Shown: piece by piece, positions 1 to 18,676 of the stretch
Layout: each line of letters opens with the position of its first letter
Numbering within the stretch: position 1 is the first letter of the stretch
NCBI RefSeq assembly: GCF_007993755.1
Contig: NZ_CP042467.1
Location: 2,504,001 to 2,568,000 of the forward strand
Reading direction: 5' to 3'
DNA: 64,000 bases
Origin: Microvenator marinus
GTDB taxonomy: Bacteria; Myxococcota_A; Bradymonadia; Bradymonadales; Bradymonadaceae
Translations under genes and position numbers: made by a program
Notes under the pieces: generated by a model
Told to the model about the DNA's origin: nothing
Databases searched by the model: none
The model's input: only the letters and a program-made list of their open reading frames with translations

Positions 1-2529
1 ACGACGAATCTCCAGATCAAAACCAAGGATCCGCTGATCTTCCTCGATATTTCCGAAGTAGACGCGACCCTCATCATCATTGGGGACCGGCAGGGTTCCG
101 ATGAAGTTCTGGCCGAGCAGGCCGTGCGCCGAGGCCAGCAACGTCCACTGATCGTCGATAGCCCATGAATACTCGACCTCAGCCTGATAGAAGGTCTCAG
201 GGGTCAGAGTCCCGCAACACGCAGATGGGAGAGTCGTGAACGATCCGTCGGTATAAAACAGCTCGTACACACTCGGGGCACGGAACGCTCGGCCGCCCAT
301 GACCTTGACGTTATGACCGTTAGAAGGCTTTAGAATCAGCGCAAGTCGCGGGTTGACCGACGAGAAGCTCTCGCCCTCGGAGCGGTCCCAAACGTCCATA
401 CGTGCACCAGCGGAAATCCGTGCCCACTCAGCGAGTTTCCAGTCTACGAGGCCATAGAATGCGTAGACGTTGTAGGTTGGGTTTACATCCAAAAGGTCAG
501 TGCGAGCGCGGTCAAACTCCGTTTGATAGACCTCCATCTTGGTCAGCGGATTGAAGGTCAACTCGGATCCCAGCGACAAACGCAGGGTCTCAATCGGCCG
601 CCAGCTAAGGCGCGCCTCGCCGCCAACCGCCAAGCCCTCGTAGACCTCAACATACGGTTGCAGGAACTCTTCACCCGATGGCCCCTCACCCTCGTAGAGA
701 TAGTCGAGGTCGAAAAGAGTGAGATTTGCCCGACCGCGCGCCAAAATCTCCAAGTCCTTGGCGATCTCGGTCTGAAGCCGAAGCTCCGCCATCATATTCT
801 GGTCGATGTAACGATTTCGAGGGTCGTTGAACACGGTGTCGAATGAACCCGTTGGAATGGCAATATCTCGGTGCGAATAATGCCACTGCGCGCTCAGCGG
901 TCCTACCCACGCGCGGCCAGAAGTCGAGACCGCATCAAAGGCGTCAATGCCCTCAGCGACATTTCCCTCCGTAGTCCCGTCCCCGTCTAAATCAAAGAAA
1001 AGCTCACCATCTCTGCCTTCGGAGCGTGCCGCAGAGACTGAACCGCGGACACCTGCGCTCGCGTCATCGTTGCGCAACACGAAGCCTGCTCTGCCACGTC
1101 CTACGCCGGCATCAAAGGTTCCAAAACTCGCTTGCAAGGCGGTCGGCTCTTCTTTGGCGTGCGGCACGAGGTTGACCACGCCCGAAACAGCACCCGTACC
1201 GTAGATCACCGAACCCGGACCACGAATGACCTCGATGGACTGAACCTCTCCGAGATCCACACGACCGTCATAACCAATGAACGCCTGATAGAGGATATTA
1301 TCGTTGAGGATCGCGCCATCCGAGAGCAAAAGCAGACGATTGTTCATATCGTTCGGCTGACCGAGGCCTCGGATAGAAACCATGCCGTAAATCGAGTCAT
1401 TGGCCAGCGACACACCGCGCGTTCCGCGCAGCGCCTCGTAAATCGTGGGATATTGGAAAGCCTCGATCTCCTGAGCGCTGATCACGCTAATCGAAGCAGG
1501 TGCGTCCTCAATCGCCTCAACATTACGCGATGCCGCTGCAACTTCTCTGAGCGGAATCATCTCAATCATGTCCAGATTGAGCTGCTCTCCCTGTTTGACC
1601 TCGATCTCCATGGTCACCGGCTTGAAACCGCGCCGAGTTACGCGGAGCTGATGTTTTCCAGCAGGAAGGTTCGGAATCACAGCAGGCGTAAAGCCCCGAA
1701 GCTTCCCGTCGATCTCAATGCTCGCCTCTGTTTCGTCCGCCGTCACCAGAACCGATCCCATCGGAATAGGAAGTGCCACGTCCACTGAGTACGCCTCACC
1801 TTCTTCCACGATGAGCTGGCGCGACTGCGTAGCGCGCCCTTCCATAGAGAAAATCAGGGTGCGCATGCCAACAATGAGGTCAGTGTCACACGGGACCCTA
1901 CAGATCGGCTCGGAATTCTCGGAATCCACTCGAATATCTGCCGGATCTCCCTTAAAACTCACGCGTCCAGTGATCGGCTCGAGCTTCAGGTTCACGTCCT
2001 GTGACTCACCCCGACCCACTTTGATCGCGTCGGAAGTAGCCGGCCGGTAGCCCTCCATCTCAACGATGATCTTGTGCTCTCCCGGCGCGAGACCCAAAGG
2101 GCGAGGCGTCTGGCCTACGGATCCGAGATCCTTCCTGCCTACGTAGATCGAGGCGCCCGGAGGATCGCTGACCACCTGAATCACAGCGACCTTCTTTGCA
2201 AGGCGCGCGAGGGCTTTGTCGATCTCCTTCTGGTCGTCTTCTGGTGCGCCAACGCGGGCATCCACATAGTAGCGATAGGCCTCGGCATCTTTATCGATCT
2301 GCTCGAAACTACGCGCGATGTTGTAGAGCACGTTTCGATTAGGAACCAAGCGGTTAGACTGCAAGAAGTGCTCGAGCGCGGACCAATAGTCACCGTCCTG
2401 ATAAGCTCGTGCGCCGAGCTGAAACTGCACCTCGGCTTCATCCGCATTATTATCTGCCCAGGCGCCACTCATGGGACCGAAGGTCACCATCAACGCCAAC
2501 ACCATTGTTTTGAGGAACTTGCACTTCAT
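1..2529 (-). CDS. TonB-dependent outer-membrane receptor with TPR and PEGA N-terminal extension (partial, 3' end outside window)
   Basis: The frame is open from the ATG at 2529 to the left edge, giving 843 codons with no stop. It begins with a signal peptide ending in SGAWA (about residue 25). A TPR-like stretch follows (LGARAYQDGDYWSALEHF, about residues 38-60). Three PEGA-type beta repeats lie at about residues 115-335, with motifs such as DPPGASIYV and GFTPAVIPNLPAGKH. Then comes a TonB plug (EDAPASISVIS, EALRGTRGVSL, IRGPGSVIYGTGAVSGVVNLV region) and the start of a beta barrel (YVEVYEGLAVGGEARLSWRP region). Plug and barrel proteins import siderophores, vitamins or glycans across the outer membrane. 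The periplasmic PEGA/TPR extension is unusual and may bind peptidoglycan or a partner. The barrel is incomplete here and the substrate cannot be told. Confidence 0.9.
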   Translation of the reverse strand, partial: MKCKFLKTMVLALMVTFGPMSGAWADNNADEAEVQFQLGARAYQDGDYWSALEHFLQSNRLVPNRNVLYNIARSFEQIDKDAEAYRYYVDARVGAPEDDQKEIDKALARLAKKVAVIQVVSDPPGASIYVGRKDLGSVGQTPRPLGLAPGEHKIIVEMEGYRPATSDAIKVGRGESQDVNLKLEPITGRVSFKGDPADIRVDSENSEPICRVPCDTDLIVGMRTLIFSMEGRATQSRQLIVEEGEAYSVDVALPIPMGSVLVTADETEASIEIDGKLRGFTPAVIPNLPAGKHQLRVTRRGFKPVTMEIEVKQGEQLNLDMIEMIPLREVAAASRNVEAIEDAPASISVISAQEIEAFQYPTIYEALRGTRGVSLANDSIYGMVSIRGLGQPNDMNNRLLLLSDGAILNDNILYQAFIGYDGRVDLGEVQSIEVIRGPGSVIYGTGAVSGVVNLVPHAKEEPTALQASFGTFDAGVGRGRAGFVLRNDDASAGVRGSVSAARSEGRDGELFFDLDGDGTTEGNVAEGIDAFDAVSTSGRAWVGPLSAQWHYSHRDIAIPTGSFDTVFNDPRNRYIDQNMMAELRLQTEIAKDLEILARGRANLTLFDLDYLYEGEGPSGEEFLQPYVEVYEGLAVGGEARLSWRPIETLRLSLGSELTFNPLTKMEVYQTEFDRARTDLLDVNPTYNVYAFYGLVDWKLAEWARISAGARMDVWDRSEGESFSSVNPRLALILKPSNGHNVKVMGGRAFRAPSVYELFYTDGSFTTLPSACCGTLTPETFYQAEVEYSWAIDDQWTLLASAHGLLGQNFIGTLPVPNDDEGRVYFGNIEEDQRILGFDLEIRR

Positions 2530-2621
2530 AGGTCGCTGCCTGCATCTATATGCGTGAGTTGGTGCATTGCTTCTACACCACCCAAGGTGAACCCTAAAGT
2601 CATATTCGAGAGCAAAAACAC

Positions 2622-2651
2622 TTGACACTCGCAAACAAGGTTGGCAAGGTT
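2622..2651 (+). promoter_or_regulatory. Possible promoter upstream of rpmB
   Basis: A perfect TTGACA lies at 2622-2627. A hexamer at the usual 17-base spacing begins at 2645 (CAAGGT), which is a poor match to TATAAT. The -35 box is convincing and the -10 is weak, so this is tentative. It would give a short leader before the rpmB ribosome site TAAGGAGA at 2686-2693. Confidence 0.35.
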
Positions 2652-3160: not shown

Positions 3161-3904
3161 GTGGAAACCTGGTTGCTCTTGGCCATCTTCGGCATCGTGC
3201 TCCTCGCGTTTTTCACGGAATCTGTGGTGGGCTTTGGGGCGACCGTGATCACGGTCTCTTTTGGCGCGCACCTCGTTCCTCTGGACGTACTCCTTCCCGC
3301 CTTTGTACCGCTTAGCGCCATGCTCTCGCTGGTCCTCGTGACCCGACATTGGCGCCAGGTGGACCTAAAGTTCTTACTCCAAAAAGTCGCACTTCCCGTC
3401 GGACTTGGCACATTGCTCGGCATGGGACTCTTCCGTGTGCTCGATTCTGCGGCCCTCCTAACCACTTTTGCGGGCTTTGTGCTTCTTATGTCGGGGAGAG
3501 AGCTAAAGCGCATCTGGGCGCGCGCTGAGGCCGCTAAACCATTAAAAACATGGCTAGGCCGCACCCTTCTCGGCGCAGGTGGCATAGTTCACGGTATGTT
3601 CGGCTCGGGCGGCCCCATGATCGTCTACGTGCTCGGCCGTGAAATGACCGAGAAAGGCCGATTCAGAGCCACACTCTCCGCCCTCTGGTTGGTTCTAAAC
3701 GCGACGCTAGTAACCGGCTACCTTTTGGACGGTACTCTCAATCCCGTCACCATTGAGCTCAGCACCACCATGGCCCCCGCGCTTTTCTTCGGCATTCTGC
3801 TAGGGGAGCGCGTTCATGGTGCAATCGACGAATCCACGTTCAAGACTGCCACGTGGCTCATTCTCTTTTTCGGCGCTGCCGCCCTATTCCTACGTGCCCT
3901 TTAG
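3161..3904 (+). CDS. TauE/SafE-family sulfite exporter-like permease
   Basis: A 247-residue, highly hydrophobic protein with about eight predicted transmembrane helices. It has TauE/SafE (DUF81) features: an N-terminal FTESVVGFGATVITVSFG segment and the mid-protein repeat GAGGIVHGMFGSGGPMIVYV. The two glycine-rich segments mark the internal duplication of the family. These proteins export sulfite or sulfonate-related anions, but the substrate cannot be assigned here. The start is a GTG at 3161, directly after the T-tract of the terminator, with no clear ribosome site. It may be expressed from a leaderless or weak transcript. Confidence 0.85.
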   Translation: METWLLLAIFGIVLLAFFTESVVGFGATVITVSFGAHLVPLDVLLPAFVPLSAMLSLVLVTRHWRQVDLKFLLQKVALPVGLGTLLGMGLFRVLDSAALLTTFAGFVLLMSGRELKRIWARAEAAKPLKTWLGRTLLGAGGIVHGMFGSGGPMIVYVLGREMTEKGRFRATLSALWLVLNATLVTGYLLDGTLNPVTIELSTTMAPALFFGILLGERVHGAIDESTFKTATWLILFFGAAALFLRAL

Positions 3905-3965: not shown

Positions 3966-6900
3966 TTATTGGATCACAAAATCAACCGTGAAGTCACCAG
4001 TCAACCCAGTGAAGTAAGAGTCGACTATGACGAATACCGACTCATTGGCGGTAGCCGTATAGGTCACGGTCTCGGCTCCAAGAGTCGAAACATCTGATCC
4101 ATCAATACACGTCGCAGGAAGGAACTCGCACACGTCGGTAATGTAGATAGCCAAGTCTTCTCCATCAGAACTCGTGACGGTGGCGGTCAAGGTTTGATTC
4201 GCAAGTAGTTGAACTTCGTAGACCGCGTCACTTCCCGGGGTTCGCGACGAGGTACATGCGTTCGTTACGGGCAAATCGTAGTCATCCGCATAGTCGAGGA
4301 AACTACCTTGAGCGACCGAAGAAGTTGATACAACGATCGGGTCTTGACAGGTCTCACCCGCCGGATTGAGGCAACGATCTGTTGCGAGGTCGCAACTACA
4401 TCCAAACTCGCGCCAGAAACCTGTAGAATCGCAGTATTCAAGAGCCGACGCATCGGCCAAACAACGATTCGGATCCACACCTGGAATGCATACAGGGTTG
4501 AGGTACTCTACTTCGAAAAGAACCACACGATCCGATGTCGAGGTCGAGGTGTCCACTCCCAGGTAGATGGTTTCCGGCTGTGAACCAGCTTGATAGTTCA
4601 TCATCACATCGTTGTTGGATGTGGACGTTACTTCCGCAGCTACGCATGTCCCCTCGGCATCAGAACAACTACTGAACAAGTAGAACAACGAAGTGTTAGG
4701 CGCAGCACGCTGCATTCGAACCTCGATGTAATCATTCGGCTCAAGCGATATCGCGTAGAAGAAGTCTGAACCGGGAGAAGTGGTCCCAGCACAAGAGCCG
4801 CTCGTCAGGGCAACCTCGTTCGATTCTTGATCGTGGCTCCCGTAGGCAGCAAACGAGTCTGTAATCACCGGCGCAGTAGCACACGAATTCACTTGAGAAG
4901 GTGGAGCTGGACGGCACCGTCCAAATGCTTGGTTACATCCCCACGGACAATCATAGAGCGCGCCAGAAGTCTGTCCGTCTTCATTACACCGCTGAGACGT
5001 ATCGGCATCCAAGCAGACGTAACGACCAGGGGTACAGGATCCACTCGTAGGTGTGATCGTGTAGTTGATAGTAGATGTGGTGCTAGTTGGGGTGGTGCTA
5101 GTTCGATCAATCACCAGATAAACCGTCTGATTAACCGGAGCCACATAGTCTACACTTCGCCTTAGGACTGGCTCATGTGCGAGACAGGAATCGAAATCAC
5201 ACCCTTCGAAGAGGAAGAGATAAGCGGTGGTGAGCCCGCTGAGCTCGGCTTGCAATCGCTCGCCAGCCAACAAATCTACCGAGTAGAAAACATCGATTCC
5301 GTTATACGTGTAGCTTAGCTGACATTGATTCGTCACGCCCGCTTTCGGATTGACAGCAAAGTTATTCCCTTGAAAATCAATTGGTTGAGTTGATGTCTCA
5401 TTTCTGTCCAGCGCAATCGCATCGAAACACGAATCGCCTTTGGGATTCGCACAGGCGCCATTGAAGCACCCCCCATCACAAGGAAGCGTGATTTCTTGTC
5501 CTTTGATACAGGAAACAAGAGCCGTTTGGTCGGGGGTACATGCGGTAACACCGGACGTACAAGATGGACTCACGAGCTCAATGCTACCAAAGAGGCGACT
5601 CGTGGCAGTGCTGGAGGTAGCGTCAACGCTAATCAGCACGGTTTGGTCCACGGGGGACTGATATCGAACGCTTGGCCTTCGGTTCGTTGAGAGTCCCCGG
5701 TCGAACGCCAAACACCCACCCGCGGGGTCAGAACAGTCCTCGAAAAGTGAGATCACTGGATAGTGCGTGGTGGTTTCATGTCGCGCATTGACTTCGAGAA
5801 TATCGCCAGCCAACATATCGACTTTAAAGTAGGAGTCTCTCCCTGTGGAAGTTCCACCGCAAGAGAGCGATGGGAAGGAATAGTCCCCGTTTATATCGGA
5901 CGGGTCGTAGGTGAATGTCAAACCAGCGCCAACATCGATTGCGTCGGCACACAAGTCCCCCGGCGTGATTTCACAAGCGCCTTGATTACATCCTTCGGGA
6001 CACGACACTAGCTCATAACCAGTCCCATCCGCCCGACAACGCTCGACCGTGAACTCGTCAGCACATGTGGAGCTGCCTGGCAAACACGCAAAACTAGTTT
6101 GCCTAATGTCCCAATTGAGATTGTATGTGGTGGAGGTTGTCGAGCTTGAAAGTCCATATTGTACGACAAAATATATGGTCTCGGCCTGTTCAGCCAGATA
6201 CGCGAAATTGTCGTTTGTGGACGATGGCACTCCAAAACAGGTGCCCATATCGCCACAGGTTCTAACTGCGTAGAACCTCAGATACGAAGACGTTGTGGAA
6301 ATATTTGCTGTGAAGACCTCTCCAGCTTCTAGGTCGACCCTAAAGATGCGATCGAACCCTGGCGCATCTTCCAAGGTGCACTCACCATAGACACCATCAA
6401 CTGGGACGAAGTGTTGCTTGACTGCGCCGTTGAACGCGTATGTTTGCGAACCAGTCCCAGACAGCGGAATAGGGTCTGCGCAGATATCTCCCAAAGGATC
6501 TACACAAGCACCGTCCTGACAACCACTAGAACAGGTGTACTCTGTTGGCATTGCCAGGTCCGAACAAAATGACAAGGTATTGGGACCCGTACATCCAAGA
6601 CCCTCCCCCGGAACACATTCAGCAGGAAGCACTTCTGCAGAAATGGTGAATGTTCCGCTGGAAGTCGTGCTACTACTTGCATCAACCACGACATAGAACT
6701 CGCCTGGGCCGTCAGTAATGAACTGGAGAGTTTCTTCCCCGGTCGTTGTGGTAGTTTGGTTTACGCGCGCGAGGCAGGTGTTGAGGGCATCGTTGGTGCA
6801 GGTATCGGTGTACCAAAGCACAGCATTATAAGAGGAATTGACCGTCACAGTCGCGATGCCAGGCTCGGTTAGAACAAGACGATAAACCGCCTCTCTCCCG

Positions 6901-9320
6901 GCTGCTGAACTTGTCGTGCTGCCAGTATTTTGGCAAGTGCCTGTTGAGTAGTCAGCGCTAAGATAGCGGAGGTCGCCTTGAATTGTGGTGCCCGGCGTTA
7001 AGAGTTCAGCGGCACCACATAGGGAATTTGGTGCCAGATTACACGCATCGCTTCCGACTTCACACCCATACGGACAAAACTCGGATTCGTCCCATCCTGT
7101 GCCCAAGTCGTTGCATGTCTGAATCTCTCTTTCGAGCACGCAACGGGTCGTCTCGGGTAAACACTGGATCTCGCGAGTCGTAATCGTTATCGTCCCAGGA
7201 TTGCTCGAATTGTTTGTCCCTCCCCTATCCGCCACTAAGAATAGTGTCAGGTCTTGACCTGTTTGGTTTTCGTAGATCAACTCCTCATCGTCAAATGTGC
7301 CAGAGTTCACTCCAGCAACACACGCCGCCTCCAATCCTGGACATGCGTCCGAGATAAACAAGCTCACATAGGAGCCATTGCGAGGCAGCGTAGCTACGAG
7401 GGCTTCACCCGGTGGAACTGTAACCTGAAAGACCAGGTCCGGACCTGACTTATCAGAGATGCTGTCATCTGGAACACAGGAGTCTGCTGCTTCGTAGTCC
7501 GCCCCGAAATCTCCCCAAGTAAATGTCTCGACATGCGGGAAACTGGACACGACTATCGGTCGATCACAAGTATCCCCCAGTTTATCCAGACAACGACCTG
7601 TCCCCGCGTCACATCCATTCTCGCAAACGATATCATTTGTTCCGGTACCGCGAGGATCGCACACACGAGCCTGAGTTTCGTCAAGACAGGTCGACTCGTT
7701 GGGCACGCATGTAACGGATTCCACTGTGTAAGTGAGTCCATAGGAACCGCCGCTTGTCGCGCTCGCACCCTCAACTACGATGAAATATCGGCCTGGCTCA
7801 AGATAGGTGGCCAAAGTCTCTACGCCTCCGCTAAGGGCAGAATCCACACACGAAACCTCTGTTTCGTCTCTCGCACACTCTCGCCGAATTGAAACCGCAA
7901 GGTTGACTTGAGTTGCTGGCACGGCCACCACGCTCACATAGCCAGCTTCAGTCAATTCGAATTGATAGAGGTCTTCTGGTGTTGAGGCACCGTCATCCGC
8001 ACAGCTCGAAGATGCACTAAGGCTCTCTCCGGAAGAGGTGATTCCTGTAACTCCCTCGCCCTCTTCGAGCAGTTGAGCGTTGGAACAGGCACTAACGATT
8101 TCATTATCCAAAAGGTCCACAGATAGACTGTAGGTGAGACCGGCAGTACTCAGATCCGAGCCCTCGATTACGATTGTGTAGACCCCGCGGCCGAGGTTGG
8201 TCACGCCAAAATCCGCGCGCGCTATATTAGTCTGCACACCGTTAACCACATTGCGGCCACTTGCCACTTCATTGCCATTTGGTCCGATCAAACTTACTTC
8301 GATGACGCCCTGACCGACCATCGAAGAAGCAATCTCAACCTCGGCACGCAGCGTACCCAAATCATCCAAATCAAGACGGGTATCGAAGGTGAAACGGTCA
8401 ACGTCTGCGTCGCATACACTAAGGTCCGAGAGTCGACCCGCGGCTCCCGCGATTTGGTAATCTACTGCATCCTCCTCAGTATCATTGGGCTCGAATTCAT
8501 CCGCGACACATGCTTCAGGCGCCACGCAGGCACCTTCCACACACACATCAGCTCCTAGACAGTCGTAGGCATTGCCGCATCCCTCAGGATTGACTTCGCA
8601 CGATACGCTGAGTGTGCCTTCATCGTATTGGCAAATCTGGTTTCCTGGGCACTCACATGCTTCACTTGCAGGTGTACACGCGCCGCCAACGCAAAGGTTG
8701 TCGTCTAGACATTCGGTAGCGGCAGCACAGCTCTCAGGGTTTACGCACTCCCCGGTTGCTGCGTCACAGACGCCACGTGCGCAGTCCACCATGTTGGCGT
8801 CGCATGTGTTGGCTGCGCATGTGCCATCGTCGCAGTAGTTGCCGGCGAGGCAATCGCTGTCGGCTTCGCACGTCTCGGAGTCTACACACTCGAGTTCTTC
8901 GAATGAGCACTCGCCGCGTTGGCAGTCGAGGTCTTCGCAGAAGGACGCTTCGTCAGTACAGACGGCGCTTACACAACGGAAGCCTTCGAGGCAGCGAACT
9001 TCCTCACTACCCGCGGTACACGAGCCTGCGTTGACGCACTCGCCACTTCCGTTATCGCATTCACCGCGTTCGCAGCCATCCAAACGGCAATCGTTCGTCA
9101 CGGCTTCGACACACGCGTTGTCTTCGCAAACGAAGCCGCTTAGGCAGTCATCTGCGTCTTCGCAGGACGCGGGGTTGATGCATTCACCGGTGGCTGAATC
9201 GCATACACCGCCTTCGCATTCCACGTCTGCGCATCTGTTTGTCGGTTCCGGATCGTCACTACACGCACCTGCGAATAAAGTGAGGACCAGAAGTGCATTG
9301 AGAACCTGCTTAAAGTTCAT
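3966..9320 (-). CDS. Giant modular cysteine-rich/PPC-like surface lipoprotein
   Basis: A 1784-residue protein. The ATG at 9320 is preferred over an upstream in-frame start at 9395 because AAGGAG precedes it and it begins a signal peptide ending in TLFAGAC-SDDPEPTN. The first ~270 residues are short cysteine-rich units (for example CLSGFVCEDNACV). After this, PPC-like beta-sandwich domains (motifs such as GRYFIVVEGAS) alternate with cysteine-rich linkers. Seven linkers are recognisable: CVPNESTC, CLPETTRC, CVPGEGLGC, CLPGSSTC, CTSGVTAC, CTPGRYVC and CIPGVDPNRC. Most end in a G(D/E)-x-C-x-(D/A)-(P/A)-I turn. This implies a long, disulfide-stapled rod on the outer membrane. No enzymatic motif was seen. 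An adhesin, predation or matrix role is possible but unproven. Confidence 0.85.
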   Translation of the reverse strand: MNFKQVLNALLVLTLFAGACSDDPEPTNRCADVECEGGVCDSATGECINPASCEDADDCLSGFVCEDNACVEAVTNDCRLDGCERGECDNGSGECVNAGSCTAGSEEVRCLEGFRCVSAVCTDEASFCEDLDCQRGECSFEELECVDSETCEADSDCLAGNYCDDGTCAANTCDANMVDCARGVCDAATGECVNPESCAAATECLDDNLCVGGACTPASEACECPGNQICQYDEGTLSVSCEVNPEGCGNAYDCLGADVCVEGACVAPEACVADEFEPNDTEEDAVDYQIAGAAGRLSDLSVCDADVDRFTFDTRLDLDDLGTLRAEVEIASSMVGQGVIEVSLIGPNGNEVASGRNVVNGVQTNIARADFGVTNLGRGVYTIVIEGSDLSTAGLTYSLSVDLLDNEIVSACSNAQLLEEGEGVTGITSSGESLSASSSCADDGASTPEDLYQFELTEAGYVSVVAVPATQVNLAVSIRRECARDETEVSCVDSALSGGVETLATYLEPGRYFIVVEGASATSGGSYGLTYTVESVTCVPNESTCLDETQARVCDPRGTGTNDIVCENGCDAGTGRCLDKLGDTCDRPIVVSSFPHVETFTWGDFGADYEAADSCVPDDSISDKSGPDLVFQVTVPPGEALVATLPRNGSYVSLFISDACPGLEAACVAGVNSGTFDDEELIYENQTGQDLTLFLVADRGGTNNSSNPGTITITTREIQCLPETTRCVLEREIQTCNDLGTGWDESEFCPYGCEVGSDACNLAPNSLCGAAELLTPGTTIQGDLRYLSADYSTGTCQNTGSTTSSAAGREAVYRLVLTEPGIATVTVNSSYNAVLWYTDTCTNDALNTCLARVNQTTTTTGEETLQFITDGPGEFYVVVDASSSTTSSGTFTISAEVLPAECVPGEGLGCTGPNTLSFCSDLAMPTEYTCSSGCQDGACVDPLGDICADPIPLSGTGSQTYAFNGAVKQHFVPVDGVYGECTLEDAPGFDRIFRVDLEAGEVFTANISTTSSYLRFYAVRTCGDMGTCFGVPSSTNDNFAYLAEQAETIYFVVQYGLSSSTTSTTYNLNWDIRQTSFACLPGSSTCADEFTVERCRADGTGYELVSCPEGCNQGACEITPGDLCADAIDVGAGLTFTYDPSDINGDYSFPSLSCGGTSTGRDSYFKVDMLAGDILEVNARHETTTHYPVISLFEDCSDPAGGCLAFDRGLSTNRRPSVRYQSPVDQTVLISVDATSSTATSRLFGSIELVSPSCTSGVTACTPDQTALVSCIKGQEITLPCDGGCFNGACANPKGDSCFDAIALDRNETSTQPIDFQGNNFAVNPKAGVTNQCQLSYTYNGIDVFYSVDLLAGERLQAELSGLTTAYLFLFEGCDFDSCLAHEPVLRRSVDYVAPVNQTVYLVIDRTSTTPTSTTSTINYTITPTSGSCTPGRYVCLDADTSQRCNEDGQTSGALYDCPWGCNQAFGRCRPAPPSQVNSCATAPVITDSFAAYGSHDQESNEVALTSGSCAGTTSPGSDFFYAISLEPNDYIEVRMQRAAPNTSLFYLFSSCSDAEGTCVAAEVTSTSNNDVMMNYQAGSQPETIYLGVDTSTSTSDRVVLFEVEYLNPVCIPGVDPNRCLADASALEYCDSTGFWREFGCSCDLATDRCLNPAGETCQDPIVVSTSSVAQGSFLDYADDYDLPVTNACTSSRTPGSDAVYEVQLLANQTLTATVTSSDGEDLAIYITDVCEFLPATCIDGSDVSTLGAETVTYTATANESVFVIVDSYFTGLTGDFTVDFVIQ

Positions 9321-9634
9321 TTGGATTGCTCCTTCAGGGTATAAAATCGGGGTACTTCCTGCCGGCACACTAGACACCTTCCAATTATTTATCAATCACT
9401 TTGATTTGCAACAACGATGACGAAAGCGCAAAGATTGCGTGTCAGTTCTGCGCAAAGAATTGCACAAAGCAACACCCACATGTAGGTGTGTATTTGGAGC
9501 AACAAACGTTAAATTTGATTGCCTTAAACACAGGGTGACTTGTGGTTTTTTGAAAACCATGGCATTTTGCGTCAGTTTGTGAAGCATCCGCTTTACACAC
9601 TTGTGTAAGCAACTCAGTGGGTTATATTTCCCCA
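9321..9634. other. Divergent intergenic region between the modular lipoprotein and the kinase operon
   Basis: These 314 bases hold no convincing gene. They are visibly more AT-rich than the flanks and must carry both divergent promoters. Two small inverted repeats are visible: ACACC...GGTGT around 9474-9491, and TTACACA-CT-TGTGTAA at 9593-9608. No unambiguous -35/-10 pair was found. Confidence 0.5.
9593..9608. promoter_or_regulatory. Inverted repeat before the kinase/ATPase gene (possible operator)
   Basis: TTACACA and TGTGTAA form a perfect 7-base dyad separated by CT. It ends 26 bases before the ATG at 9635, where a repressor or activator would overlap the promoter or leader. No regulator is assigned. 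Confidence 0.35.
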
Positions 9635-12600: not shown

Positions 12601-13105
12601 GGCGCGGTTTAAGACGCTGAATGGGTTTCTCGCGGATCAGAGAAATGATTTCCAGCTCGCGCTCCAGGAACATTTGGGCGCGTGGAATATCTTTAGGACG
12701 TTTGAGCCCGAGGCGCATTTTGCGCTCGATGCAGCTCAGAATACGGCTCGCGCCATGTTGCAGTGCCGGCGTTGGGACGAAGCGTTGCAGATTCTTTTGC
12801 AGCTCGAGCGGCGACTCGTTGCAGAAGAGCAAATCCACGTACAGATTCACGACGCCTTGCTCTGGGCGAGCGCAGCCACCCGCCAATGGACCCATTTTGA
12901 GCGTGCGATGGCTCGCGCATTCGATTTTGAGAAACGGGCGCCGACAAGGTACAACGCACGAGCCCTCAAAGGCACACTCGAAGAGCTCCTCAAAGTTCGA
13001 GAGCGAAACCGCGCAAGTCGCGTGACTGAACTCTCTCTTGAAGCCCTCCAAGGAGTGCCCGGACTCAAGGACGACTACGATTATTTTGCGGAGAAGGCAC
13101 GATGA
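9635..13105 (+). CDS. Hanks-type Ser/Thr kinase fused to AAA ATPase and TPR-like region
   Basis: 1156 residues. The N-terminal kinase has the glycine loop GTRFATGGMGQVWKG, lysine in VAIKVM, HRDIKPDN (H132-D134), DFG (D156) and GTPLYMAPEQF, so it looks catalytically complete. From about residue 380 an AAA/STAND-like ATPase follows, with Walker A GLAGTGKS (387-394) and Walker B AIVWLDDG (about 510-517). The rest, roughly 680-1150, is helical and TPR-like. This architecture is common in Myxococcota signalling proteins, where the ATPase/TPR part likely senses or scaffolds partners. The ATG at 9635 is preferred over the GTG at 9617 because MKLGAFEIG leads straight into the kinase fold. Its stop overlaps the next kinase start by 4 bases, so the two are probably translated together. 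Confidence 0.93.
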   Translation: MKLGAFEIGTRFATGGMGQVWKGSYATLGTPVAIKVMTGPTASSETFRTGFKREVQATAKLNHPGIVDVYDFGVLPPDARNFGLMPGSPYFVMEFVQGASPLEVVQSWADLKHILTGTLASLAHAHAHGLIHRDIKPDNVIVERSSGGLGRVVLTDFGVVHTLDRNTSTHGEDITARSIEEVSGTPLYMAPEQFRGEFRDYGPWTDIYAVGIMAWHLACGAPPFNGKNPYKLARMHLADPVPELDPEFEVPIGLNAWVHELTEKDFVKRPASAAEALEALLGLEDPEDLRQTSVQESVRSGFDFDDAPTMFVPTAEQAEPSVARRFPPQAWTQATEVSGPLAVRQGLGLLALKTVPLTGRHAERDMLWRTFTDAWETRIPHTTIIRGLAGTGKSRLAQWLTQLALEGGHAAVFHATHQPEPGQMNGISWMLRQYFRAAGLRGETLVERIREVLERQGVVDDYEVRGLAEIMREDIQKREGVPTTQILLSIEQRFELVRRVFARAAKDQVAIVWLDDGIWDREATSLIEYIHGHDEDTPVLFLLTVREESLDEDPKYRQALEKIENKPHIDTLFLDFMDPESFDLLIQSGLGVTGKAADILRERCDGSPLFATQVVEFWLAQGVLAEENGQVVLKDENIAPPDTIGGLWRSRLEHLVEELAQSRELEHKTFSAPSDPDTVWRWLEFAAALGRDVDESEWLHAGEMAGLKAVGGLAEALVDTRLAESRERGFSFVHGLLRDSIHAHSVEMKRWKRINLTCARMLTSRYAQNHPGLSTRVARHFMEGGQLPLAQMCLMEALKRERATGLLSNVVAVCEMLEYTLKRSRVPESDAVWVDIKAAHGRVLLESARRHDLEDGTRLLNEAVQAGRAHPPSAAMARALAGFGLSHVHQSMAVHGIPFVKEGLEMAPDDETRGECLLEMAEIYKGFNRHSESLENAEIALALVNDPLKNARAYLLIGQALLGLEHPDAESTLSRGVELCRTHGFFLHEARFKTLNGFLADQRNDFQLALQEHLGAWNIFRTFEPEAHFALDAAQNTARAMLQCRRWDEALQILLQLERRLVAEEQIHVQIHDALLWASAATRQWTHFERAMARAFDFEKRAPTRYNARALKGTLEELLKVRERNRASRVTELSLEALQGVPGLKDDYDYFAEKAR

Positions 13106-14796
13106 CCCCACTCGACCCGAACGATCCCCAAAGCCTTCAAAACGGGCGATATCAGCTCAAAGGCATTCTGGGCGAAGGCGCGATGGGCCGCACCTACCTC
13201 GCCGTGGACACTCAGACACATACCGAGCTGGCCATCAAGGCACTCTATCCGTCGCGCCTTGCCACCATCAAGGACCTCGAGATGTTTGAGCGCGAGGCCG
13301 CTGTCCTCAAGCGCCTTGACCACCCCCAAATCCCCAAATATCTAGACGCGTTTCACGAGGGTGAAGGCGAGTCGATGTGTTACTTTCTCGCCCAAACCTA
13401 CGTGAAGGGGCGGACTTTGAGGGATATGATCGACTCGGGGCATCGATTCGACGACGACGAATTCATCCAGCTCGCGGAACACTTGCTTGAGGTGGCCTCA
13501 TATCTACACACGAGCACTCCGCCGGTCGTCCATCGCGATTTGAAACCCGCCAATATCATCATCAACCCCAAAGAAACGCCGGTCGTGGTGGATTTCGGGG
13601 CCGTGCGTGAAGTGGTGAGACTCACCATGGGCGGCGGCTCAACGATCATCGGCACTTATGGATATATGCCACCCGAGCAGCTCATGGGGCGCTCACTCCC
13701 CGCCACTGACGTCTATGCGCTCGGTGTGACGCTCGTGGAGTGCCTGACTCGCCAAACGCCTACCGACTTGCACGGCGATGATATCAAGCGACTCATTGAG
13801 GGCGTTCGGGGAACCGACAATCTCAAACGCTTGCTTTCACGCATGTGTGCACCCTCTTTGGAAGATAGGTTCAAGAGCGCCAACGAAGTCTTGGAAGACT
13901 TGCGCGGGCTCAAAGGCGGGGTCCTCGTTCACACTGCAAAGCTCGAACAAGAGATTCTCGACCGTGAGCGCGAACGCATCAAGGAACTGAAGAAGAAAGG
14001 GTCGCAGCGAGCCCATATCGGCTATCTCCTCTTGGTTTTGATAGCACTCAGCACCGCAGTTGTAGCGATAGCATACGTAGGTCAAGCACTTCTCGTTGGA
14101 GTCAACACGTCTATACAGCTCGCGCTATTCATCGGTGGCGCGGGCCTCCTGATGAACCTCGGTCTTGTTGGGACGAGGGTCAATCACGACGCGTGGAATG
14201 CGCCTCAACCCGACTGGAAAAAGGCCACCGCCAAGGTCAAGAGCGTGCGCCAGGAACAGGTCATGACCGAAAATGGCACTCTGGATACAGTCAACATCCT
14301 GACCTATGTGTTTGCGGCAGGTTCTTCGCTGCGCGAGCATAAGCGGGTGCTAAGCCGTGCCGACTATGCCGCGCTTGAGAGGATTCGAGACCAGGAAGAG
14401 ATGCCGAAGCGTCAAAAGGCCCTGATCGACTATATCGTCGCGCAATTCAAAGAAGATCATGGCATCGATATTCGCGAGAACGAAGCGGCCATGAAGCGCG
14501 TCAAAGAAGGCGCGAGAATCGGAGCGCTTGACCGTGAAGTCACTCAGAAATCCTATGTCGTAATCTTCATTCCCGGCGTGACTCTCGAGCCTCGGAAGGA
14601 CTTCAGGGTTCAGCTGACTTTGAGTGAGTACAAAGATCTTTTCCCCTTGCGTGGGGTCATCCCCAAGGGCTACGAATTCAGCGTCTGGTACCCTCCTGGC
14701 AAGCCTGAACTCCACGATTTGAGAGACATCAGGAAGCCAGGGACCGACGTGATGGAAAACCTCTTTTCACACCTAGAGATTCACACTCCCGAATAA
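13102..14796 (+). CDS. Membrane-anchored Hanks-type Ser/Thr protein kinase
   Basis: 564 residues. The kinase domain (about 15-275) has GEGAMGRTY, lysine in LAIKAL, HRDLKPAN (H144-D146), DFG (D164) and GTYGYMPPEQ, so all catalytic motifs are present. Two hydrophobic helices follow (about 304-327 and 333-355). The C-terminal ~200-residue soluble part (ATAKVKSVRQEQ..., GVTLEPRKDFRVQL) is recalled as similar to DUF3592-type beta domains, with limited certainty. It starts inside the stop of the upstream kinase/ATPase gene (ATGA overlap). This paired arrangement suggests a cascade or shared substrate; the targets are unknown. Confidence 0.93.
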   Translation: MTPLDPNDPQSLQNGRYQLKGILGEGAMGRTYLAVDTQTHTELAIKALYPSRLATIKDLEMFEREAAVLKRLDHPQIPKYLDAFHEGEGESMCYFLAQTYVKGRTLRDMIDSGHRFDDDEFIQLAEHLLEVASYLHTSTPPVVHRDLKPANIIINPKETPVVVDFGAVREVVRLTMGGGSTIIGTYGYMPPEQLMGRSLPATDVYALGVTLVECLTRQTPTDLHGDDIKRLIEGVRGTDNLKRLLSRMCAPSLEDRFKSANEVLEDLRGLKGGVLVHTAKLEQEILDRERERIKELKKKGSQRAHIGYLLLVLIALSTAVVAIAYVGQALLVGVNTSIQLALFIGGAGLLMNLGLVGTRVNHDAWNAPQPDWKKATAKVKSVRQEQVMTENGTLDTVNILTYVFAAGSSLREHKRVLSRADYAALERIRDQEEMPKRQKALIDYIVAQFKEDHGIDIRENEAAMKRVKEGARIGALDREVTQKSYVVIFIPGVTLEPRKDFRVQLTLSEYKDLFPLRGVIPKGYEFSVWYPPGKPELHDLRDIRKPGTDVMENLFSHLEIHTPE

Positions 14797-16762: not shown

Positions 16763-18676
16763 ATGAAACTCAACACAGTTCTTTTGGTCATCGCCGCCGG
16801 CACCTTTCAATTGATCAGCGGTTGTGGCGACTCAGTCACAAAAAAAACTCCCACACAAGAACCCCCTGTCGAAGGCTGCGCGCCTGAGTGTGAGGAAGGT
16901 TTCACCTGCGTACAATCCGAGTGCGTGGAGACTCAAGACCCTGACGCGTGTGAAGAAGACGAAGAGTACAATGAGATGCTCAAGGTCTGCCTGGTTCCCT
17001 CGTGTACGAATGGCATCAAAGACAGCGCTGAGGAAGGTCCCGACTGTGGAGGCCCCTGCGAACTTGAGTGTTCGATAGACGAGCCTTCCTGCGACGACGG
17101 CGTCAGAAACGGCGACGAGATTGGGGTAGATTGCGGAGGAAGTTGTGAGGCTTGCGAAGTCCCAGCAACCTGCGGAAATGACACCATTGAAGCGGGCGAA
17201 GACTGCGACCATGGAGGCACCCTCCAGCTCAATTGCGCATACGGCGAGACCTCTTGCCAGGTGTGCTCGGCCTCGTGTACGTGGGTTGAAGGGACGGTAT
17301 CGGGCTTTTGCGGTGATTTGACTGTACAAGGAGGTGCCGGCGAGGAGTGTGACGAAGGCCAAGACCCCGTAAGGTTATGCGACTATGGGCTAATGTCGTG
17401 CCAAGTTTGCAACTCAAACTGCCGATTCACCGCTGGCCTAACCGCGTATTGCGGTGATGGGATCCGCCAAGCACCCGAGAACTGCGATGGAACAGACCTC
17501 GATGGCGGAACATGTACAGGCCTTGGAGAACCGGCCGGCACACTGAGTTGTTCGAGCTCATGCACTTGGGATACGAGTGGCTGCCAAGCGCAACCGTCGG
17601 GACCTGCGCCCGTAACTCTCTCAGTCGGCTACTCACATACCTGCACAGTCATGGACGATGACTCGGTGCGTTGTTGGGGTGAGAATACCGACGGTCGAAT
17701 CGGAGATGGCACGCGAACCCAACGCACGACCCCAACCGTGGTCCCAGGCCTCCAAGCCGAGTACGTGGTCGCGGGCGGCTATCACACATGCGCGCTACTC
17801 TTGAACGGCACAGTTTCTTGCTGGGGCTCAAATCTAAAGGGACAAGTTGGAGTGACCACTACAGGCGATGTCCTTACTCCTACGCCTGTAGCGGGTCTGA
17901 CAAACATTACTGCCATCGACGCCGGAACCGGCCATGTCTGCGCGCTGACTGCCAACGGAGACGTCTACTGCTGGGGTGATGCTGAATACGGCCAGACCGG
18001 TTACGGAAGTTTGGGTACTTTTTCTTCCACTCCAATCCGAGTCACCGATTCCAACGGATTCGCGATCAGCAACGTGACGCAGATCTCCGCCGGTTTGGCT
18101 CACACGTGCGCTCGGCATGCGGATGGCACCATCTCGTGTTGGGGCCGAAACGATTACAACCAACTCGGGCGCTATCCGCAAACTACATTCTCGCAACCGT
18201 ACGCAGGGAAGGTCTACAATTCCGCAGGGTCTGTGGTGTCGAACGCCCAATATGTGGGAGTAGGAGGGGACTTCACTTGCCTAAGAGACGGGGCATCGAT
18301 CTCGTGTTGGGGCGGCAATGTGTACGGCCAGCTGGGACTCAGCGATACACTTGACCGACCCTACCCAAGCACCATCTTCAGCTCCCTTGGGTTCCTAAAC
18401 GTCGGCGAACGCCATGCGTGTTCGTCCAATGCGTCTCGCGAGCTCTTTTGCTGGGGATTCGGCCAAGACGGTCGCCTCGGAACGGGGAGCACTCTGAACC
18501 AATCGAGCCCCACATTCGTGAGCTTACCCGCCAACACCACCTTCGATGTTGGAGGCACTCACACCTGCGCACTTCTGCAAGACGGCAGTCTGCAATGTTG
18601 GGGAAGAAACAACCGAGGTCAGCTTGGAAACGGGACGACGCTTAACGCATCAACCCCAACTCCAGTAACCTTCTAA
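16763..18676 (+). CDS. Cysteine-rich lipoprotein with a seven-repeat RCC1 beta-propeller
   Basis: 637 residues. The lipoprotein signal is MKLNTVLLVIAAGTFQLISGC, cleaved before the cysteine. Residues ~30-275 contain myxobacterial-type disulfide repeats (CGDGIRQAPENCDG, CGDLTVQGGAGEECDEG). The rest has seven RCC1-like repeats. Each carries a CWG-x(3-5)-G-x-(L/I/V/T)-G turn: CWGENTDGRIG, CWGSNLKGQVG, CWGDAEYGQTG, CWGRNDYNQLG, CWGGNVYGQLG, CWGFGQDGRLG and CWGRNNRGQLG. Seven repeats suit one closed propeller, and most repeats also have a HTCA-type cysteine that could pair with the CWG cysteine. The protein is probably exposed at the outer membrane; its ligand is unknown. Its stop overlaps the convergent FKBP stop by 4 bases. 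Confidence 0.9.
   Translation: MKLNTVLLVIAAGTFQLISGCGDSVTKKTPTQEPPVEGCAPECEEGFTCVQSECVETQDPDACEEDEEYNEMLKVCLVPSCTNGIKDSAEEGPDCGGPCELECSIDEPSCDDGVRNGDEIGVDCGGSCEACEVPATCGNDTIEAGEDCDHGGTLQLNCAYGETSCQVCSASCTWVEGTVSGFCGDLTVQGGAGEECDEGQDPVRLCDYGLMSCQVCNSNCRFTAGLTAYCGDGIRQAPENCDGTDLDGGTCTGLGEPAGTLSCSSSCTWDTSGCQAQPSGPAPVTLSVGYSHTCTVMDDDSVRCWGENTDGRIGDGTRTQRTTPTVVPGLQAEYVVAGGYHTCALLLNGTVSCWGSNLKGQVGVTTTGDVLTPTPVAGLTNITAIDAGTGHVCALTANGDVYCWGDAEYGQTGYGSLGTFSSTPIRVTDSNGFAISNVTQISAGLAHTCARHADGTISCWGRNDYNQLGRYPQTTFSQPYAGKVYNSAGSVVSNAQYVGVGGDFTCLRDGASISCWGGNVYGQLGLSDTLDRPYPSTIFSSLGFLNVGERHACSSNASRELFCWGFGQDGRLGTGSTLNQSSPTFVSLPANTTFDVGGTHTCALLQDGSLQCWGRNNRGQLGNGTTLNASTPTPVTF

Follow-up and report, generated by a model that had tools for sequence, protein, structure and literature searches.

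Periscope Proteins are rod-like, surface-attached monomers built from highly identical tandem repeats whose number varies within populations (PMC9704523). Fibrillar adhesins are long, multidomain proteins with tandem stalk-like domains, and the main text of their survey does not name the PPC domain (PMC8286594). Bradymonadales prey via cell contact, for which adhesion to the prey has been proposed as a prerequisite (PMC7460792, PMC11509652); in the papers considered here, type IV pili and type III-like secretion systems have been proposed as their predation devices. Here we analyze a giant lipoprotein encoded in a 64,000-nucleotide stretch of the Microvenator marinus genome ('the window', to which all positions refer), whose layout is like that of Periscope Proteins and fibrillar adhesins but which, by our comparison, would belong to neither class. 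With Periscope Proteins it shares tandem domains between conserved ends and a repeat number that is variable among homologues, whereas it is predicted to be lipid-anchored and disulfide-rich, the module number of its relatives is constant in three congeneric species, and the identity among its own repeats (25% on average, 32% at most) is too low for membership by the published definition (PMC9704523). Fibrillar adhesins offer the same great length and tandem arrangement (here seven modules plus two PPC-fold domains), yet the published sense of the term does not apply (PMC8286594), as Pfam and NCBIfam searches found no known adhesive domain.

The original prediction had placed the lipoprotein gene at 3966-9320. 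These coordinates are correct, and we add that the gene is encoded on the minus strand, with its ATG at 9320, its last sense codon at 3969 and its stop at 3966-3968; the plus strand over the same interval holds many stops. A Shine-Dalgarno-like GAAGGAG stands 8 bases upstream of the ATG. The precursor begins MNFKQVLNALLVLTLFAGAC, in which the signal peptide (MNFKQVLNALLVLTLFAGA) is followed by C20, and the predicted lipobox LFAG-C at its end bears out the lipoprotein assignment; a signal peptide whose lipobox ends in cysteine is what defines a signal peptidase II substrate, and most relatives begin likewise. The protein has 116 cysteines after the predicted lipidation site, a mature pI of about 4.05 and 0.4% lysine. 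The gene stands alone: a kinase gene starting at 9617 is divergent from it, and a TauE-like gene (3161-3904) runs convergently towards it. Elsewhere in the window we noted a TonB-dependent receptor with PEGA domains (1-2634, minus strand) with weak TPR matches ahead of the plug, a Ser/Thr kinase (13102-14796, plus strand) whose C-terminal part weakly matches an HSP70 segment (aa 439-513), and an RCC1-repeat protein (16763-18676, plus strand) with 7.4% cysteine.

The mature protein runs from five 8-cysteine units through two PPC-fold domains to seven modules, with nine beta sandwiches in total (Table 1). Each module is 174-182 aa long and consists of a 6-cysteine linker of ~40 aa followed by a beta domain that contains another four. 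The seven similar cysteine linkers first recognized between repeated beta domains were recovered at the module starts given in Table 1, and the many shorter cysteine units described for the N-terminus resolve into the five units of eight cysteines each. Beyond what had been described, we found the two extra PPC-fold domains (aa 271-537) ahead of the first linker, and four cysteines belonging to the beta domain of every module.

Table 1. Coordinates of the lipoprotein gene and its parts in the window
Feature	Position	Strand	Basis
Whole gene, 1784 aa lipoprotein precursor	3966..9320	-	ORF and translation; composition
Shine-Dalgarno-like GAAGGAG	9329..9335	-	direct sequence reading
Signal peptide, aa 1-19, lipobox LFAG-C at end	9264..9320	-	sequence
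Cys20, predicted lipidation site, then S-D-D-P-E	9261..9263	-	sequence; comparison with other lipoproteins
Base at the N-terminus, made of five 8-cysteine units (aa 30-77, 78-127, 128-172, 173-221, 222-270)	8511..9233	-	alignment of the units with cysteine counts
beta1, fold of PPC/collagen-binding-domain type with EPND motif and a single predicted disulfide (C271-C303); approximate boundary to beta2	8097..8510	-	AlphaFold2 and VIA-align
beta2, four cysteines (412, 440, 482, 491) in a PPC fold, no preceding linker	7710..8096	-	VIA-align; profile match to collagenase CBD
Module 1 (aa 538-719), 6-Cys linker and 4-Cys beta domain, conserved 'first' class	7164..7709	-	repeat alignment, module tree
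Module 2 (aa 720-901), position likewise conserved in relatives	6618..7163	-	repeat alignment, module tree
Module 3 (aa 902-1078)	6087..6617	-	repeat alignment, AlphaFold2, VIA-align
Module 4 (aa 1079-1253)	5562..6086	-	repeat alignment, AlphaFold2, VIA-align
Module 5 (aa 1254-1428)	5037..5561	-	repeat alignment, AlphaFold2, VIA-align
Module 6 (aa 1429-1610)	4491..5036	-	repeat alignment
Module 7 (aa 1611-1784), 'last' class, presumably the end distal to the membrane; stop codon 3966-3968 next	3969..4490	-	repeat alignment, module tree

The linkers and beta units align as repeats. Local alignment scores of module pairs, compared with shuffled sequences, gave z values of 2.4 to 30, exceeding 6 in 20 of 21 pairs; with the cysteines masked, the same pairs still reached 1.9 to 15, so the repetition is more than a cysteine pattern alone. 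All 116 cysteines after Cys20 could be assigned, with 40 in the 8-cysteine units, 2 in beta1, 4 in beta2 and 70 in the modules. Across 208 modules from 30 proteins, with a mean pairwise identity of 27%, ten cysteine columns are all kept in 202 modules and account for 2074 of 2088 cysteines. Beta1 has equivalents of cysteines 7-8 only and beta2, which no linker precedes, has 7-10, and therefore the six cysteines of the linker and the four of the sandwich probably pair within themselves. Within the sandwich, cysteine 7 would pair with 8 and 9 with 10, the linker would hold three disulfides of its own, and the even module-wise cysteine count points to ~58 intramodular disulfides.

The original prediction described the beta domains as PPC-like, which the predicted fold supports and the PF04151 profile does not for the window protein itself (11 bits, E 0.83, against a gathering cut-off of 25.9 bits). 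AlphaFold2 predicted modules 3-5 (25 sequences) as nearly all beta with a mean pLDDT of 82 and a pTM of 0.51, and an N-terminal stretch of 699 residues starting near aa 20 (9 sequences) with a mean pLDDT of 80 and a pTM of 0.43; at these pTM values the domain-domain angles are left unfixed, despite confident single domains, and the long surface rod to which the original prediction likened the protein is thus a putative shape. In VIA-align searches, beta1 matched 3jqw (Z 13.3, 2.2 A, 111 residues), beta2 matched 1nqj (Z 13.1, 2.1 A, 95 residues) and module 4 matched collagen-binding domains (Z 11.5), where the rows for the N-terminal model cover mainly its beta domains. Module 5 aligned to the lysozyme inhibitor PliG (4dzg; Z 11.0, 2.4 A, 103 residues). 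Additionally, a profile of the head alignment matches a PDB collagenase chain at E 1e-4, and PF04151 matches 17 of 25 relatives' triplets at E <= 0.1, the best at 2e-13. On these models, the beta domains are diverged, disulfide-bearing units of the collagenase collagen-binding/PPC fold, and repeat alignment and predicted fold agree on the alternation of cysteine linkers with PPC-like beta sandwiches. The beta domains tested share their fold, and a weak profile similarity, with the PPC (PF04151) and collagenase collagen-binding domains (3jqw, 1nqj, 5iku) at Z 11-13 and 2.1-2.8 A over 95-115 residues; the window protein differs from them in its two predicted disulfides per module domain, its cysteine linkers, its repetition and the lack of a peptidase.

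No Pfam or NCBIfam domain, a peptidase domain included, scores above cut-off in the protein. PPC domains are also found in non-peptidases, attachment to a peptidase being typical of them and not essential. Initially no name could be given to this architecture, and indeed no family in Pfam, NCBIfam or PHROGs covers the whole length. A search for the myxo disulfide repeat (TIGR02232) had been proposed as a check, and the searches did not uphold this repeat as the source of the cysteine units: the protein gave no match at E <= 1 (cut-off 20.8 bits), and a genome-wide search placed 40 matches elsewhere and none within the gene. TIGR02232/DUF4215 is similar in being a short cysteine-rich repeat of the same phylum, and differs in that the window protein does not match it.

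Copy-number variation of the modules among relatives, raised as a check in the original prediction, is borne out. Complete proteins carry 1 to 13 full modules in precursors of 1150-2990 aa, and their base nearly always holds 40 or 48 cysteines, corresponding to 5 or 6 units (exceptions are 16 cysteines in one protein, 38 in two and 49 in one). When all modules are placed on one tree, those in first position require 3 changes against 28 in shuffles. When only proteins with at least 5 modules are considered, the numbers are 5 against 22 for first, 7 against 22 for second and 10 against 20 for last modules, while the fourth to sixth positions, counted from the N-terminus, come close to random; the shuffles ignore protein kinship, so the contrast of ends and middle weighs more than the absolute values. 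On these data, the base is almost constant, the first, second and last modules retain their identity and the middle modules vary in number, which would amount to a variable-length shaft between a fixed base and a fixed tip.

Length probably changes slowly, since two orthologues have constant module numbers across three congeneric species (full modules 13/13/13 and 12/12/12, with sequence identities of 83-93%), a comparison at the species level only. In one orthologous trio, module 4 (p about 1e-6) and module 7 (1.6e-3; both values uncorrected for the number of modules) are sharply divergent at amino-acid and four-fold sites, and most of their neighbours lack such divergence. This suggests that whole modules may have been exchanged as units in that trio; the signal is absent from the second orthologous trio. 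Module-sized tracts of low amino-acid identity between congeneric species were noted in modules 4, 7 and 12 of the 2.9 kaa protein (L051, L052 and L068), where four-fold-site identity is clearly low in modules 4 and 7 and weakly so in 12, a pattern suggestive of whole-module exchange.

The best-supported explanation, which we consider somewhat more probable than not, is that the protein is a surface stalk, lipid-anchored, monomer-encoded and stiffened by disulfides, that serves in cell contact or adhesion. Its N-terminal cysteine would be lipidated in the outer membrane, and the conserved base would be formed by the five compact 8-cysteine units and the two PPC-fold domains. The seven repeats of linker and sandwich would project outward in an extended chain with the C-terminal module as its tip, every unit being stabilized by the predicted intramodular disulfides. 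Evolution would alter the length through gain or loss of middle modules with retention of base and tip, and this pattern of changing middle and constant ends makes a spacing job likely: the stalk may position a tip that binds, or several sandwiches in a row that each bind weakly, at a defined distance from the membrane. Its targets may be other cells, matrix or prey. Given that predation in Bradymonadales is contact-dependent and that adhesion has been proposed as necessary for it (PMC7460792, PMC11509652), cell contact is the most likely use. A more specific form of this explanation seems rather doubtful to us, namely a contact device common to the whole lineage of predatory Bradymonadales, in the form of a disulfide-armoured molecular ruler whose reach is set by middle modules that are exchanged as units, whose conserved C-terminal tip recognizes prey or kin and whose conserved base docks in the outer membrane.

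Surface exposure itself could be questioned. In Bacteroidota, surface export is signalled by polar and then acidic residues at +2 to +6, such as SDDDD or SDDFE (PMC5080379), which the SDDPE after Cys20 and similar motifs in many relatives resemble. However, at least two acidic residues occupy that place also in 17 of 33 sampled lipoprotein-like ORFs of the same genome; acidic starts being so common, SDDPE proves nothing about surface export. A structural lipoprotein that never leaves the periplasm, for example a spacer between outer membrane and wall, would be equally well served by lipobox and disulfides, and the phylum has no proven surface-export signal. We nevertheless hold this to be quite improbable, because precursors of 1150-2990 aa, changing internal modules and tandem paralogues suit the surface better, and a chain of 13 modules, if extended, would be too long for the usual periplasm.

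If the protein does reach the surface, it may be a passive coat or armour, a dense, acidic, disulfide-locked lipoprotein layer against salt, proteases or phage with no specific ligand. This would fit the saline habitat (PMC7460792), the strong acidity, the several paralogues and further Cys-rich lipoproteins in the genome, and a lysine content of 0.2-1.9% in the family against a mean of 3.8% in 268 sampled ORFs. Low lysine is, however, common to other secreted Cys-rich proteins of the genome, and the conserved first, second and last positions together with module-wise divergence suggest specialized ends and changing binding surfaces, so that we think a coat unlikely. We give a similarly low chance to a substrate receptor or binding protein, in which each domain of PPC/CBD fold would bind a collagen-like protein, a polysaccharide or the prey wall and module number would set avidity: among solved structures the nearest folds are those of collagen-binding domains, and PliG (4dzg) is a further match for module 5, but this is fold likeness alone, at 7-21% identity, and a generic PPC similarity only. 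Under the favored explanation, a lipid-anchored modular stalk whose modules occur in every examined genome of the family would be a concrete and testable candidate contact device. It would also indicate how very long secreted proteins can be assembled in a diderm out of PPC-fold units that have diverged and carry disulfides, in contrast to the near-identical repeats of Periscope Proteins.

The modules are present (E <= 1e-82) in 21 of 21 genomes examined from this taxonomic family, to which Lujinxingia vulgaris TMQ2 (L068) also belongs. Only this family yielded the complete N-terminal head (profile positions 1-317), and within it five genomes gave no match to it and three more a weak one. In the same class outside the family, two genomes (G031 and G226) encode related linker-plus-sandwich proteins with different N-termini. 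Many Myxococcota and deltaproteobacterial MAGs (L069-L090) share a cysteine-containing N-terminal part and several tandem PPC-type domains; here the domains mostly abut, and both the alternating 6-Cys linker and the N-terminal head of the window family are absent. Taken alone, the 6-cysteine linker turned up in 54 genomes out of a phylum-wide sample of 140. The parts are therefore widespread, and what is lineage-specific is their alternating assembly in combination with this head. A scan of GTDB contigs with the single protein returned no relative, and a profile scan returned relatives only in Lujinxingia, in Myxococcota or proteobacterial MAGs, or in less finely classified MAGs; aa 225-719 had no match on plasmids in PLSDB.

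Across 20 neighbourhoods there were no conserved partner genes, and tandem paralogues were frequent. About 142-243 kb into one contig (G003:C4; L057, L058) we observed a dozen or so lipoprotein paralogues, mostly of 1.15-1.37 kaa with few modules each, several of them in direct tandem. Further cysteine-rich ORFs were also noted. One at about 2.186-2.190 Mb of G000:C1 (L106 6388-9885, minus strand) is lipoprotein-like, with 191 cysteines in 1166 aa (16.4%), and weakly resembles the window protein in its N-terminal 8-Cys units. Two others in the same genome (L098 14075-15637, plus strand, and L113 4043-5296, minus strand) encode 521 and 418 aa with ~15% cysteine.
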